DNA of 44,723 bases from a virus: positions 1 through 44,723 of the IMG/VR virus record IMGVR_UViG_3300046536_000016; one strand, given 5' to 3'. The translations under genes and the position numbers were made by a program. How positions within the stretch are numbered: position 1 is the stretch's first letter; each line of letters starts with the position of its first letter. Shown here in pieces: positions 38,425 through 44,723 of the stretch. The notes under the pieces are model-generated. The model worked only from the letters and a program-made list of their open reading frames with translations. It made no database searches and had not been told where the DNA came from.

Positions 38425-40149
38425 TTAGAATTCCGCGTTAGCTGTGTAGTGAAAGGAGATACGAGACACCGCCGCCGCGAATATCTTGAAGACCTTAGTG
38501 GTCAGATTATCGACTGAAGAACTTGAGACACCGTTCGTGATCCCATCTGTCGAGATCTTCCCCACAGCCCCCAACGAGTCATAGAAGGTAACCGAGGGGG
38601 CAGCCCGCATCTCAACAGGAAAGCGCACCAGATTAATTGTATTAGGACTGGATGCCCCACCCCCGGTGGCCTCAGCGATCCCGCCAGTGAAACCAAGGTT
38701 GGTCCCTGCCGCAACGCCATCGGAGTATGACTGCTGGTAATACCTCATACACAGGCTACGTTCTTGAGCGTACGAGCGCCGATCAAACGGGGTGGCTACG
38801 GTTCCCGCTTCAAGCTGGACATCGGTAATGTGAAGGCCTGCGTTCAACGTCCCTGCCCAATTGGTAAGCCCGGGGACAGTGAAGAAATTCCCCGCGACCC
38901 ACGTATTAGTGGAACTTGTTTGGAGCGAGCCGGTATTGAGTCCCCCAATTGTCAGGGCGAGGCCTGCAGCGTTAGACTGAGGAATGGTTGCACCTGAGGG
39001 AATCGCGGGGAACGTTACTGAAACCCTTTGTCCTACATTAACAGTTGGAATGGCGAACGTTTGAACGCAAGAATAACCACCAGGCCCATCCCGAAGGGCA
39101 ACCGCGAACGTACCTGGGATCGTGCTACGGACTGTAAAGCCTACGGTAACCTGCTTCCCGATAAGATCATAGGCGTTAACCCCCTCAATAACGTGCTTGT
39201 GTGCCTGGATGTTGTTGCCACCAGTCAGGTTTGTAGCCGCAACGGTAGCTACGCAATTGTTAAAGGGCTTAAGGACCCCAGTCTCGTCGGCTAGAGAGGT
39301 CTGAGAAAGAGTGAGGGTTCCTCCCCCACTGTTAGCGGCCTGCCACCTGTCGCACTGTCCGTACCCCGAACTACCCGTAGTCACAGCTAAAGCGGGCCGC
39401 TGTGTAACCCTCATGTCCCCGTTGATGATCCTGTTGCGACCAGCAAGGGATGCCGTAAAGTTCTGAGCCACGAGAGCCGAAGCTGCCGCAGCGTTCTGGC
39501 TGGTCAGGGCATTACCTTCAGAGGTTGCCGCATTGGCTGCACTGGTAGCCGCTGCATTCTTGGAACTAAGGGCATTGGTCTCGCTGGTTGCCGCATTGCC
39601 TGCGCTAGTTGCCGCTGCGTTCTTCGAGGTGTTCGCTGAGGTTGCCGATGCAGCCGCATTGGTCTCGCTGGTCCCTGCGTTCACCTTGCTAGTGTTCGCT
39701 GCAGTTGCCGAGGCTGCCGCGTTTGTTTCGCTAGTCCCCGCTGCATTCTTCGAGGCCAGGGCTGCACTTGCGGAAGCTGCAGCGTTCGTTTCGCTTACCG
39801 AGGCTTGACCCGCAGCGGTACCAGAGGTCGAAGCACTCGCGGAAGCTGCGGAAGCAGATGATGCCGCATTGGTTGCCGAGGTCTGAGCAGCAGTGGCAGC
39901 AGCATTCGCAGCAGTGATAGCCGTGTTAGCTTGGGCCAAGGTATCATTGGCCTGTTGTGCGAGGCCAGCTACGTTCCCCTCAGAGATCGCAGCGTTAGAC
40001 GCAGAGGCAGCAGCGGACACAGCGGCAGCTTGGGCAGCTTGGGAATCCGCAGTACTCGCGGTCAACTGAGCCTGCAGAGCGTCGACCAACTGGTCCGTAG
40101 TGTTATTCTCAGGGAACGTCGATTCCCCGTTAAAGAAACTGGTGGTCAT
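38425..40149 (-). CDS. Tail fibre with long Ala/Ser/Thr/Asn coiled repeat
   Basis: A 574-aa protein. After a short N-terminus (MTTSFFNGESTFPENNTTDQ) there are about 200 residues of Ala, Ser, Asn and Thr repeats, built from units like SETNAAASATAANTSKNAA, which form a trimeric coiled-coil shaft. From about 235 onward (ASLAGRNRIINGDMRVTQRP) there is a beta-rich head with carbohydrate-binding-like features: YGQCDRWQAANSGGGTLTLS, then GTVATPFDRRSYAQERSLCMRYYQQS. The GRNRIINGDM and DxxxRRSYAQER motifs recur in phage fibres. It would bind the host surface. The ATG overlaps the stop of the adaptor gene by one base. Confidence 0.85.
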   Translation of the reverse strand: MTTSFFNGESTFPENNTTDQLVDALQAQLTASTADSQAAQAAAVSAAASASNAAISEGNVAGLAQQANDTLAQANTAITAANAAATAAQTSATNAASSASAASASASTSGTAAGQASVSETNAAASASAALASKNAAGTSETNAAASATAANTSKVNAGTSETNAAASATSANTSKNAAATSAGNAATSETNALSSKNAAATSAANAATSEGNALTSQNAAAASALVAQNFTASLAGRNRIINGDMRVTQRPALAVTTGSSGYGQCDRWQAANSGGGTLTLSQTSLADETGVLKPFNNCVATVAATNLTGGNNIQAHKHVIEGVNAYDLIGKQVTVGFTVRSTIPGTFAVALRDGPGGYSCVQTFAIPTVNVGQRVSVTFPAIPSGATIPQSNAAGLALTIGGLNTGSLQTSSTNTWVAGNFFTVPGLTNWAGTLNAGLHITDVQLEAGTVATPFDRRSYAQERSLCMRYYQQSYSDGVAAGTNLGFTGGIAEATGGGASSPNTINLVRFPVEMRAAPSVTFYDSLGAVGKISTDGITNGVSSSSVDNLTTKVFKIFAAAVSRISFHYTANAEF

Positions 40150-41183: not shown

Positions 41184-42119
41184 TCACGGAATCGTCGGGT
41201 TCGTGCCCGTGAGGCCGATGATGGCAGCCGATGCACCGTAGTTGACGTGCTTCAGGCCGAACTCACCAACGATCTGCTCGCGGTGACCGTCACCCGTGAT
41301 AGCCAGCGGGTTGCGGAACCAGTTACGGAGGACCGTGGTCTTCCAGTTAGCCGGATCGAACAGGAGTGCCGAGTCAGCCTTCTGGAAGCGGTTGATCACA
41401 ACCTTCTGCTCACCGAACGGCGACACGTACAGGTCCACCACGTTGACGATGGCCTTATCAGCACCGAAGTCGCGCAGACGACCAGCAGCAGCCGAGAAGC
41501 CAGCAACGATCAGCGAGTCAGCAGGCTTGATCATGAGGAACTTAGCTTCACCACCGTTCTCATACAGCTTCTGGTTAGCCGAGAGGATGTCCGCTTCAAC
41601 CAGGGCAGCCGGGGTTGCCGTGTGGTCAATCGTGTTCGCTGCGTTGATCAGCTTTGCACCGTTCACGTCCGTACCCCAGACGCTACCGAACTTGCGAGCA
41701 ACGGCTTCCGAGCCAACCACTGCGGTCGTCGCGAGACCAACATAGGCGTACTCGAGGTCACGCTTGGCTTCTGCCGACTTCTTACCGAGTTGGTATGCCA
41801 ATTCCTTAGCACGACCATACGTCGACACCGTGTCAGCCGTGTTCGACACCTTCACAGTCTTCTGGAAGATCTGGGTCGTGTTGGCACGCATTTGGGTTGC
41901 AGCAAGCGTGCTATCAGCAGCATCAGCACCTTCAAGCACTGCGCTCGACGACACCGTTGCCAGTGCATCTTCCTGCCATTGATACAGCGTGTTCGAAGCC
42001 TTGTCGTTCTTGACCAGCGTGGTGAACGGGGTCAGCGTCGGGCTGATATTCGAGATCACGTCGCTGATGTCTTCCTTCTTGCCAACCTGATCGTACGTCT
42101 TGAATGCGGTATTGCTCAT
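41184..42119 (-). CDS. Major capsid protein (DUF5309-like)
   Basis: A 311-aa protein that would form the icosahedral shell. It opens MSNTAFKTYDQVGKKEDISD, then VISNISPTLTPFTTLVKNDKASNTLYQWQEDALA. This Pro-Thr-x-Thr-Pro-Phe start, with Trp-Gln-x-Asp, is characteristic of DUF5309 capsid proteins seen in several podoviruses. The middle (MRANTTQIFQKTVKVSNTAD, then GRAKELAYQLGKKSAEAKRDLEYAYVG) holds the E-loop and spine helix. The C-terminus ends GLTGTNPTIP. It follows the scaffold gene and is followed by a strong terminator, fitting high expression. AGGAAC lies before the ATG. Confidence 0.9.
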   Translation of the reverse strand: MSNTAFKTYDQVGKKEDISDVISNISPTLTPFTTLVKNDKASNTLYQWQEDALATVSSSAVLEGADAADSTLAATQMRANTTQIFQKTVKVSNTADTVSTYGRAKELAYQLGKKSAEAKRDLEYAYVGLATTAVVGSEAVARKFGSVWGTDVNGAKLINAANTIDHTATPAALVEADILSANQKLYENGGEAKFLMIKPADSLIVAGFSAAAGRLRDFGADKAIVNVVDLYVSPFGEQKVVINRFQKADSALLFDPANWKTTVLRNWFRNPLAITGDGHREQIVGEFGLKHVNYGASAAIIGLTGTNPTIP

Positions 42120-42150: not shown

Positions 42151-43176
42151 TTAGTCCTGCGCCCAACGTGCCAAGAAGGCTTCCGCTGCGTCATCCGTAG
42201 TGCCCGAAGCTTTCAATCGCTTCATCTGGGCTGCGGCCTTGTTGACCTGGACATCTCGACCTGAGGTAGTCTTGGTGGTCTTGAGGACCTTCTTCGGTGT
42301 CACAACTTTCTTCTTCGTGACAACGGCCTTAGCCTTATCGTGGTTCATGGCCTTGTGGATCAATTGGATTGCCACAGGGTCCACCAACTCATTGATCATC
42401 GCCTCCGGGAGACCTTGGGAGATCGCGTATTCACGCACGGAGTTGTATGTGGCTTGGTTCCAGCCGGGGATCTTTTCCTTCAGTACCTTGACGGCCTCTT
42501 TGGCCTGGGTCTGGAGGAAGGTTTGGCGCTGCGCATTCGCATCCTTCACGAACGTGTCAGCTTCCTGAGAGATGAACTGAAAGTCTTCATAGGCAGCTTG
42601 GGCCTCAGCACGAAGGGCAGCGAACTGATCGCCATCCAACTGCTTACTTGCCACGAGCATGTCAATCTTCGAGTACGGTTCCCAACGAGCAGCGGCCTTT
42701 TCATAGACTCGTTGCATCTGGGCTGCCAGCTTCTTACCGTTCTCTTCGACCTGCTTACGCTCTGCTGCTACTGCTTGGGACTTCGTCGTCAGTGCTGCTT
42801 CCTGACCGTAGAGTCGCTTCAGATCCTTGACGGATACCTCGTGCTCCTTGTCGCCAACTTTGATCTTGACCTTGACGGCATCCGAGGTATCTTTGGTTTC
42901 CTCGGGGGCATCTTCTTCTTGATCTTCATCGTCCGACTCGGAGTCCGTTTCTTCAGGGTCCGTTTCGTTATCTTCTTCGGTTTCTTGGTCTTCTTCAGCT
43001 TCAGTCTCGACCGTCTCATCATCGGTTTCGACTTCGTCTTCCTCAGGGCTTTCGGATACCTCTTCAGGGTCCTCTTCGCTCCATCGAGACAAGAAGGCTT
43101 CTGCTGCGTCGCCTTCGGTGTAATTGAGGGCGGCAGCGGTGTTGCTGTCGACGCCCGATTGGGTAGTCGTGGTCAT
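42151..43176 (-). CDS. Scaffolding protein with a repeated capsid-facing motif
   Basis: A 341-aa acidic protein that would guide capsid assembly and leave before packaging. Residues about 35-95 are almost all Glu, Asp, Thr and Ser, followed by VKVKIKVGDKEHEVSVKDLK and a long helical coiled coil (AVAAERKQVEENGKKLAAQM). A ten-residue motif, DAAEAFLSRW, lies at 23-32, and DAAEAFLARW at 329-338. The same words at both ends are likely to touch the capsid. The start is ATG 43176 with no strong ribosome site. It lies between the portal region and the capsid gene, as expected. Confidence 0.85.
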   Translation of the reverse strand: MTTTTQSGVDSNTAAALNYTEGDAAEAFLSRWSEEDPEEVSESPEEDEVETDDETVETEAEEDQETEEDNETDPEETDSESDDEDQEEDAPEETKDTSDAVKVKIKVGDKEHEVSVKDLKRLYGQEAALTTKSQAVAAERKQVEENGKKLAAQMQRVYEKAAARWEPYSKIDMLVASKQLDGDQFAALRAEAQAAYEDFQFISQEADTFVKDANAQRQTFLQTQAKEAVKVLKEKIPGWNQATYNSVREYAISQGLPEAMINELVDPVAIQLIHKAMNHDKAKAVVTKKKVVTPKKVLKTTKTTSGRDVQVNKAAAQMKRLKASGTTDDAAEAFLARWAQD

Positions 43177-43184
43177 ATTGGGTT

Positions 43185-43430
43185 TTACTCTTCAGTGGGT
43201 TTAAGTAACTGGTTCTTTTGGTAGACCCAGTCAGTGAGTTCTGCGGTGATGCTCTGTAGTGCTCGGATCTGGAAGTAAGCAATCTCTCGCTTCTCCTTGT
43301 CTTCCGGAGCACTCATCGTCATCACGTTGAGTTGTTCGTTGTATAGCTCGTTGATGGCGACCGTGAAGGCCTCTGTTTCCAGAAGCACCTCAGCGGCTGT
43401 GCCACGTTTGAGCGTGAGTTCTTCGCTCAT
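43185..43430 (-). CDS. Small helical protein between portal and scaffold, 81 aa
   Basis: MSEELTLKRGTAAEVLLETE, then AFTVAINELYNEQLNVMTMS, then KREIAYFQIRALQSITAELT and a final short helix. It is acidic and mostly helical and lies seven bases after the portal stop. Short genes at this place are common in podoviruses. Its role in assembly is not known. Confidence 0.7.
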   Translation of the reverse strand: MSEELTLKRGTAAEVLLETEAFTVAINELYNEQLNVMTMSAPEDKEKREIAYFQIRALQSITAELTDWVYQKNQLLKPTEE

Positions 43431-43436
43431 TGGGGA

Positions 43437-44723
43437 TTAGTTAGGGGAGACGATTGCCTTGGCAGACGCAGGATCAGCCGCAGCCATTTCCTTAGCCTGT
43501 GCCATCTCTTCAACAGCGATAGCAGCCTTGGACGTGACTTCGTATTCCTTGATGTCAAGCTCGCGTTGCTTGCGGACATTCTCGAGTTGAACCTTGAGGC
43601 GGTCGATGTCGGATTGAACCTGCTCGATACTGATGTGACCTTGGACCTTGGACTGCGAAGTCTGAGCAACACTTTCTTGCACAGCGACCTTGCGTTCCTC
43701 GATCTCCAATTCCTTCATCTTGATCGGATCAGGCTGCTGCGGCGGGAGTGTCTTCGGATCCGTGAGGACCAGTTCGACTTGCTTGATACCCATCTTCTCG
43801 ACGTACATCCGTGCGAGGTTGTATCGGTTCTGTTCACCAAACATGCGGGCATTGTTCGGATCCTGTCCAAGGACCTGACCGATACCTAGGATCTTCTGGG
43901 CTTCCTTCTGCTGCTCATTGGCCCCAAGGTGAAGCTCGATGGTGCAAGTGACTTCCTCGGTCCACTCCTCAACAGAGACAGGGACGAAGTTGCCAGCGAC
44001 ACGGATCACCTTCTGTTGCTTCTCGTTCTGGATGACCAGACGGTAGACCTCGAGATACAGAGGCTTAATGAACTGGTTGGCGAAGTTACGGGCCATGATC
44101 TTCTCGCGTTGCTGCGAGAGGGACACGAGACCTTCGACCATTCCCTGTGCGTTCTGCTTGGACAGGGCATCCTTATTGAGACCTTGGGACAGCTTCGAGA
44201 CACCAGTGACCTCTTCCTTCTCCTCATCGAGAAGCTGGAGCGTCTGGAACACGAAGGGGTTCAGCCCAGGCTGCGGGAGCGGGATCAGGCCATCAGGACG
44301 GGTAACGTTGACCAGACCACCAATGCGGTTCTCTAGGAGTTCCTTGGGGTTCGTCAGGGCACCCTTAACCACCATCATGCGGGGGTTATTGGTGATGACC
44401 GTGTGGTCCAGGATGCCTCGGGTCAGTACAGTCCGTGCGTTCTGCGTTGGGATCACTCGGGCTGCATAGTTCGAACCATAGAATGCATGGGGAACCGGAG
44501 TCGGACAGAAGTGCAGGAACGGCTTCTTCTCTACCTGTTCCTTGTCGAGGATCACCGAACCAGCCGAGGTAACCTTCCAGAGCTTCGTGATGCCCGTACC
44601 GTTCATGTCGAGGTACAGGTAGCTCTCGTGAACAAGGACACCCTCGGAAGCCTCTTGCAACTCTGAGTCACTCTCGTCAAGCAAGGACGCGCCGATGTCT
44701 TGGAACCGCGTGATCTTCTCGGG
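43437..44723 (-). CDS. Portal protein, C-terminal part (codons 257-684 of 684)
   Basis: The rest of the head portal that starts at 927. The frame enters from the right edge without a start codon and ends at 43437. It carries SYLYLDMNGTGITKLWKVTS, then HFCPTPVPHAFYGSNYAARV and a helical segment (MVEGLVSLSQQREKIMARNF) that would form the stem and barrel, then a Gln and Glu rich C-terminus (QEAQKILGIG, EELEIEERKVAVQE). Bases 44565-44723 repeat 1-159. The internal TTG at 44684 is not a start. Together the two pieces give 684 aa. Confidence 0.85.
   Translation of the reverse strand, partial: PEKITRFQDIGASLLDESDSELQEASEGVLVHESYLYLDMNGTGITKLWKVTSAGSVILDKEQVEKKPFLHFCPTPVPHAFYGSNYAARVIPTQNARTVLTRGILDHTVITNNPRMMVVKGALTNPKELLENRIGGLVNVTRPDGLIPLPQPGLNPFVFQTLQLLDEEKEEVTGVSKLSQGLNKDALSKQNAQGMVEGLVSLSQQREKIMARNFANQFIKPLYLEVYRLVIQNEKQQKVIRVAGNFVPVSVEEWTEEVTCTIELHLGANEQQKEAQKILGIGQVLGQDPNNARMFGEQNRYNLARMYVEKMGIKQVELVLTDPKTLPPQQPDPIKMKELEIEERKVAVQESVAQTSQSKVQGHISIEQVQSDIDRLKVQLENVRKQRELDIKEYEVTSKAAIAVEEMAQAKEMAAADPASAKAIVSPN
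44565..44723. repeat. Terminal redundancy, right copy (contig-end overlap)
   Basis: This is the right copy of the 159-base overlap with the left end, with G at 44691 where the left copy has A at 127. The single difference is synonymous in the portal gene. Confidence 0.95.

Follow-up and report, generated by a model that had tools for sequence, protein, structure and literature searches.

Why should a phage scaffolding protein carry nearly the same ten residues close to each of its two ends? The control of capsid size and shape by separate scaffolding proteins is a long-standing problem, in part since most of the scaffold appears disordered in procapsid maps. It is raised again by one gene in the window, that is, the whole 44,723-nucleotide stretch that we analysed (IMG/VR record IMGVR_UViG_3300046536_000016, positions 1 to 44,723). 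The gene and its neighbours are located as follows.

42151..43176, minus strand: head scaffolding protein, 341 aa (PHROG 3927, PHROG 9013, synteny, Foldseek)
41184..42119, minus strand: major capsid protein (MCP), SU10 type (PF17236, E 1.5e-73)
43185..43430, minus strand: small 81-aa protein between portal and scaffold, without the motif (weak match to PHROG 8161, E 5e-4)
43437..44723, minus strand: portal protein, SU10 type, 5′ end beyond the window (PF23899, E 2.8e-103)

The window protein belongs to a known scaffold family

The first-pass annotation had named the product of this gene a scaffolding protein, and profile searches bore this out. The ORF matched the PHROG 3927 head scaffolding protein at E 5.3e-32, with residues 15-336 covering profile positions 16-340 of 342, and also matched PHROG 9013 at E 4e-24. 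The gene lies between the SU10-type portal and the SU10-type MCP gene, directly upstream of the latter, in the order portal (PF23899), small ORF, scaffold, MCP (PF17236) and SU10-type adaptor. The synteny from portal to MCP was found in most annotated relatives, and those with the matching order include phiEco32, Salmonella 7-11, LUZ24, tf, Venkman and phiM5, whose homologue carries a scaffold annotation. Foldseek searches against predicted viral structures returned scaffolding proteins of the family, including those of KSP100 and Aeromonas phage 4_4572. The PDB holds relatives of the window MCP (7z45, 9ny2), while profile and fold searches there recovered no recognisable scaffold relative (none at E < 0.001 in the fold search). 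We conclude that the window protein is a typical representative of a scaffold family already known, of the SU10/LUZ24/phiEco32 capsid type.

The neighbourhood showed some variation among relatives. A small ORF of ~70-85 aa is present between portal and scaffold in most annotated relatives, and it often overlaps or abuts its neighbours. The gap between scaffold and MCP measures 513 bases in the relative L052 (positions 2482-2994), compared with ~6 to 90 bases in other relatives. Several elongated-head phages, namely L069 (7-11), L080 (GAP52), L169 (BUCT695) and L175, have at least two adjacent genes annotated as or matching MCP after the scaffold.

The two motif copies are nearly identical

The two copies of the motif were located near the termini of the scaffold.

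43081..43110, minus strand: N-terminal copy DAAEAFLSRW, aa 23-32 (sequence; within a predicted helix, aa 21-33)
42163..42192, minus strand: C-terminal copy DAAEAFLARW, aa 329-338 (sequence)

They share 9 of 10 residues and, in the DNA, 26 of 30 bases; no other pair of 10-residue segments in the scaffold matches as well. When the end segments were shuffled 3,000 times, the maximum match was 7/10, reached once; the near-identity described in the first-pass annotation is exact and lies beyond all shuffles. A profile of C-terminal copies, run against the window in six frames, gave the two copies scores of 34.6 and 23.6, the next best match reaching 9.4, and no third copy was found in any frame of the window.

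Both copies are kept across most of the capsid family

We read the ORF immediately upstream of the MCP gene at 134 loci; of the 115 distinct sequences obtained, most were scaffolds of the family. All close homologues carried both copies, nearly unchanged, and both were found from near-identical relatives down to scaffolds 20-40% identical. This outcome favours the first-pass annotation, which had named the loss of a copy in close homologues as evidence against its reading. Distant relatives carried an A-A-x-x-hydrophobic helix at both ends, with residues specific to each lineage, and elongated-head relatives carried another shared motif at both ends, unlike that of isometric-head relatives. 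Examples are given below.

LUZ24: N-terminal EAAEAFGDLL, C-terminal EAAAALFSSL
Venkman: N-terminal DAASAIEGML, C-terminal DAAAIFENFI
L095: N-terminal SAADKILGLL, C-terminal DAQSAILGML
L086: N-terminal PTEAILQRWE, C-terminal IADLIMSRWE
7-11 (elongated head): N-terminal NFNFFDLED, C-terminal SFNFLED
BUCT695 (elongated head): N-terminal SFDFTSLDD, C-terminal AFDFLED
Vp_R1 (elongated head): N-terminal DVFSSLDD, C-terminal DVFNALVD

For 105 of 131 scaffolds (80%, with 22% expected by chance), and for 19 of the 31 representatives below 50% identity, a profile built from C-terminal copies only had its best non-C-terminal match among residues 1-65. In a minority of distant members, one end lacked an obvious copy. 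The double-ended pattern, which the first-pass annotation had regarded as peculiar to this phage, is instead the normal state of the scaffold family, since all close homologues retain both copies and most distant ones have them in a form specific to their lineage. Judged by its distribution among these sequences, the paired motif is old and has been kept across most of the SU10/LUZ24/phiEco32 MCP family.

Two further groups of scaffolds were observed in this comparison. Elongated-head scaffolds of the phiEco32/Grimontviridae type (L068, L069, L079, L080, L170, L171, L178, L179) have F-x-F-L-E-D or similar at the C terminus and a related F-x-F-x-x-L-D-D near the N terminus. Candidate scaffolds of ~134 aa upstream of distant SU10-type MCPs (L060, L062, L063, L064) end in G-N-V-E-G-M-L-K-S-K-x-x-x-x-F, which resembles the C-terminal copy only; an N-terminal copy was not evident in them, and they are possibly one-ended relatives.

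The likeness of the copies is kept at the protein level

The close DNA of the two copies had been taken as a sign of either a recent copy or selection for identical binding. In the window, 7 of the 9 identical residues share a codon, compared with 3.9 expected (P 0.023). Over 55 scaffolds, the codon was shared in 107 of 238 identical residue pairs, and codon usage predicts 103.9 (sd 7.3), M and W being excluded from the test. Because the excess vanishes over these relatives, the DNA likeness of the window copies is weak evidence, and a recent DNA copy is ruled out by the codon sharing together with the wide phylogenetic spread of the pair. These comparisons indicate that the likeness is kept by selection on the protein and not by recent DNA copying.

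The two ends match within lineages

Had the ends evolved independently after one separation, a scaffold's own C-terminal copy should be no closer to its N-terminal copy than foreign C-terminal copies are. Among the 31 representatives below 50% identity, the N-terminal copy scored 19.7 against its own C-terminal copy and 14.0 against foreign ones (z 6.6). This own-minus-foreign excess of 5.7 compares with 1.05 in a shuffled-composition control, and interior-segment controls against the N- or C-terminal ends gave nothing comparable. The excess was also found among ~12 representatives below 30% identity (median p <0.0005), and it was weaker with ~7 representatives (median p 0.006-0.011). F28/F334 and the equivalent residues were identical in 81% of own pairs versus 34% of foreign pairs. 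L29/L335, R31/R337 and W32/W338 also matched in a lineage-specific manner, the matched positions being those of the hydrophobic face and the last turn, while the two motif alanines, shared by most lineages, were uninformative. Residues that are rare, R-W for example, occurred jointly at both ends of the same lineages. In several elongated-head phages, the scaffold's own other end scored no higher than foreign ends.

Joint shifts of the two ends were examined on a tree of 101 capsid proteins. Independent contrasts at position 7 gave 3.5 pairs shifting the same way versus 1.1 shifting oppositely, of 10, which was not significant, and in the branchwise test on the same tree co-change was no more frequent at matched than at mismatched positions. 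Parallel replacements on the same branch were found only at position 7 (F to I twice, F to L once, and F to L with F to I); at least one joint shift is uncounted because the fixed alignment misplaces the N-terminal motif of elongated-head phages. The permutation p-values above are thus support for a pattern that arises from a handful of deep events, not from dozens of independent ones. Selection for identical binding, as earlier suggested, is favoured by the within-lineage match of the ends, with the small number of independent joint shifts as a caveat.

The two ends differ in predicted context

An AlphaFold2 model built on 71 aligned scaffolds gave the following anatomy between and around the motif copies.

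42877..43077, minus strand: acidic disordered tether, aa 34-100 (composition; pLDDT <50 over aa 35-97)
42322..42873, minus strand: core of a beta hairpin (aa 102-115) and long helices (aa 116-285) (AlphaFold2, pLDDT 85-93 over most of the helices)
42262..42321, minus strand: basic low-confidence linker, aa 286-305 (composition; low pLDDT at about aa 291-305)
42157..42261, minus strand: C-terminal helix-turn-helix, aa 306-324 and 327-340 (AlphaFold2, pLDDT 74-80)

In this model the N-terminal copy lies in a lone helix (aa 21-33, pLDDT ~65) at the end of the ~70-residue acidic tether, which holds 40 D/E and 1 K/R in its 67 residues. In the helix-turn-helix, the second helix is the C-terminal copy; G325 at the turn is at least 90% conserved, and aa 285-326 hold 12 K/R and 1 D/E. 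The contexts of the two ends are unlike, with a helix-turn-helix and a basic linker at one and a lone helix and an acidic linker at the other.

A putative two-ended grip on the capsid

In the systems described so far, scaffolds are attached to the shell by one end. A study of D3 generalises that 'one end of the scaffold' joins the capsid backbone helix (PMC12749128), and in SPP1 the MCP carries attached scaffold density at its N-arm helix and at the amino end of its spine helix (PMC6813328). A single MCP site receives a common terminal motif, a helix and hook, from both the 80alpha scaffold and SaPI1 CpmB (PMC5644958). We propose that the scaffold studied here, which has a short amphipathic helix of one kind at each end, probably grips shell proteins by both. 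By analogy with P22, SPP1 and 80alpha, the MCP is a plausible partner of the motif, which would make the pair a capsid clamp, and we lean somewhat towards a reading in which both ends bind the same MCP site, with one scaffold chain bridging two MCP subunits. Under this mechanism, both copies would bind one site, most likely on the MCP inner face, formed by the N-arm and the P domain spine helix. With this arrangement a single chain could engage two MCP subunits simultaneously, and a scaffold dimer four; such multivalent holding would raise avidity and space the capsomers during prohead assembly, and release of the scaffold would follow remodelling of the MCP site on expansion. A broader proposal, to which we give slightly less than an even chance, is that the two-ended clamp is the ancestral scaffold design of the whole SU10/LUZ24/phiEco32 capsid family, and that its ends track one changing capsid site and were switched together to another motif in elongated-head phages.

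We also modelled scaffold and MCP of L026 as one read-through chain (~30-aa linker, 124 rows), a modelling device and not a natural protein, for which confidence values but no coordinates or inter-domain errors were available. Confidence at the motifs was ~54 for the N-terminal and ~74 for the C-terminal copy, compared with ~65 and 77-80 in the scaffold alone, so that it showed no rise, and the model located no binding site. Correlation of motif divergence with MCP divergence named no specific MCP site, since the scores of control scaffold segments equalled or exceeded those of the motif. MCP aa 86-115, at the end of the predicted spine helix, was considered as the site from partial Mantel peaks and rejected, as control segments gave equal or higher values elsewhere. 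The proposal is further weakened by the small number of joint shifts on the capsid tree, by the minority of distant members in which one end lacks an obvious copy, by the elongated-head phages whose own ends score no higher than foreign ones, and by the unlike contexts of the two ends.

Three other explanations were weighed against the proposed bridging of MCP subunits. The copies might bind related but different partners, the tethered N-terminal helix taking the portal or an internal virion protein and recruiting it to the growing prohead. The two ends do differ in context and charge, N-terminal copies are more variable than C-terminal copies in elongated-head phages (our own comparison and PMC4281155), and a portal contact has been proposed for the P22 scaffold hooks in addition to their binding of coat protein (PMC12005531). 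With different partners, however, there would be no reason to expect the copies of one lineage to stay alike, and we consider this reading rather unlikely. That within-lineage matching is also predicted if the copies pack homotypically, so that the N-terminal end of one scaffold meets the C-terminal end of the next and builds a core lattice without MCP contact; scaffolds are also known to form dimers and higher oligomers (PMC12005531). In solved systems, however, the terminal helix binds coat protein and other helices oligomerise (PMC5644958, PMC12005531), and the copies here are short, with the N-terminal one on a disordered tether, so that we regard self-association as distinctly unlikely.

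The least probable of these readings, in our judgement, is that Ala-rich amphipathic helices are simply common at protein ends and that the close match in the window is a chance peak with no shared partner. It agrees with the non-significant tree-based co-change tests and with the finding that most lineages have no more than the A-A-x-x-hydrophobic core in common. A chance peak would leave unexplained that the C-terminal profile finds the N-terminal end in far more scaffolds than chance predicts, that the own-versus-foreign excess survives the composition and interior controls, and that rare residues such as R-W stand together at both ends of the same lineages.

Comparison with other scaffolds

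The proposed bridging of MCP subunits by both ends can be set beside several known systems. The PHROG 3927/9013 family with SU10-type MCP (SU10, phiEco32, 7-11, LUZ24, tf, phiM5) is like the window in gene order, sequence family, fold prediction and both terminal motifs, the latter in recognisable form, but its members are annotated as scaffold only. The SU10 paper detected the scaffold in particles by mass spectrometry and, in the sections consulted, describes an N-terminal helix that differs between isometric and elongated heads, with the paired terminal motif unmentioned in those sections (PMC4281155).

P22 gp8 has a helix-turn-helix at its capsid-binding C-terminal end, and the window scaffold likewise has one at its extreme C terminus. 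We know of no N-terminal copy of the C-terminal end in gp8. In gp8 the C-terminal end is the one to which capsid binding is ascribed, with Arg293/Lys296 and the coat N-arm making the contact (PMC12005531). Profile and fold searches of the PDB found no homology between the two scaffolds; the modelled C-terminal helix-turn-helix of the window protein appears P22-like in form, and kinship with gp8 is unsupported. The 80alpha scaffold and SaPI1 CpmB also use a short terminal helix motif twice on one MCP site (PMC5644958), but the copies lie on two competing proteins and not at both ends of one. SPP1 gp11 and phi29 gp7 resemble the window scaffold in having terminal helical hooks at the capsid-binding end, and differ in that MCP binding is assigned to the N-terminal end (PMC6813328).

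In the literature searched, mostly outside subscription journals, we found neither the paired terminal motif nor its wide conservation or lineage matching. The new element is that a scaffold carries a helix of the capsid-binding type at each end; the protein family itself is known. If the broader proposal is true, scaffold function would depend on MCP subunits being bridged bivalently, and not on a single end that binds the capsid. The paired motif offers a simple geometry, in which a flexible linker with two binding ends and a fixed reach would connect a pair of capsid subunits. As the pair can be recognised from sequence in a large phage family whose members have isometric or elongated heads, the role of a second grip in head size becomes addressable, and two matching peptides provide an internal control for mapping the capsid-protein site.

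Elsewhere in the window, positions 38425-40149 encode a tail fibre-like protein whose N-terminal half contains long Ala/Ser/Thr/Asn-rich repeats with units of the TSETNAAASA type.
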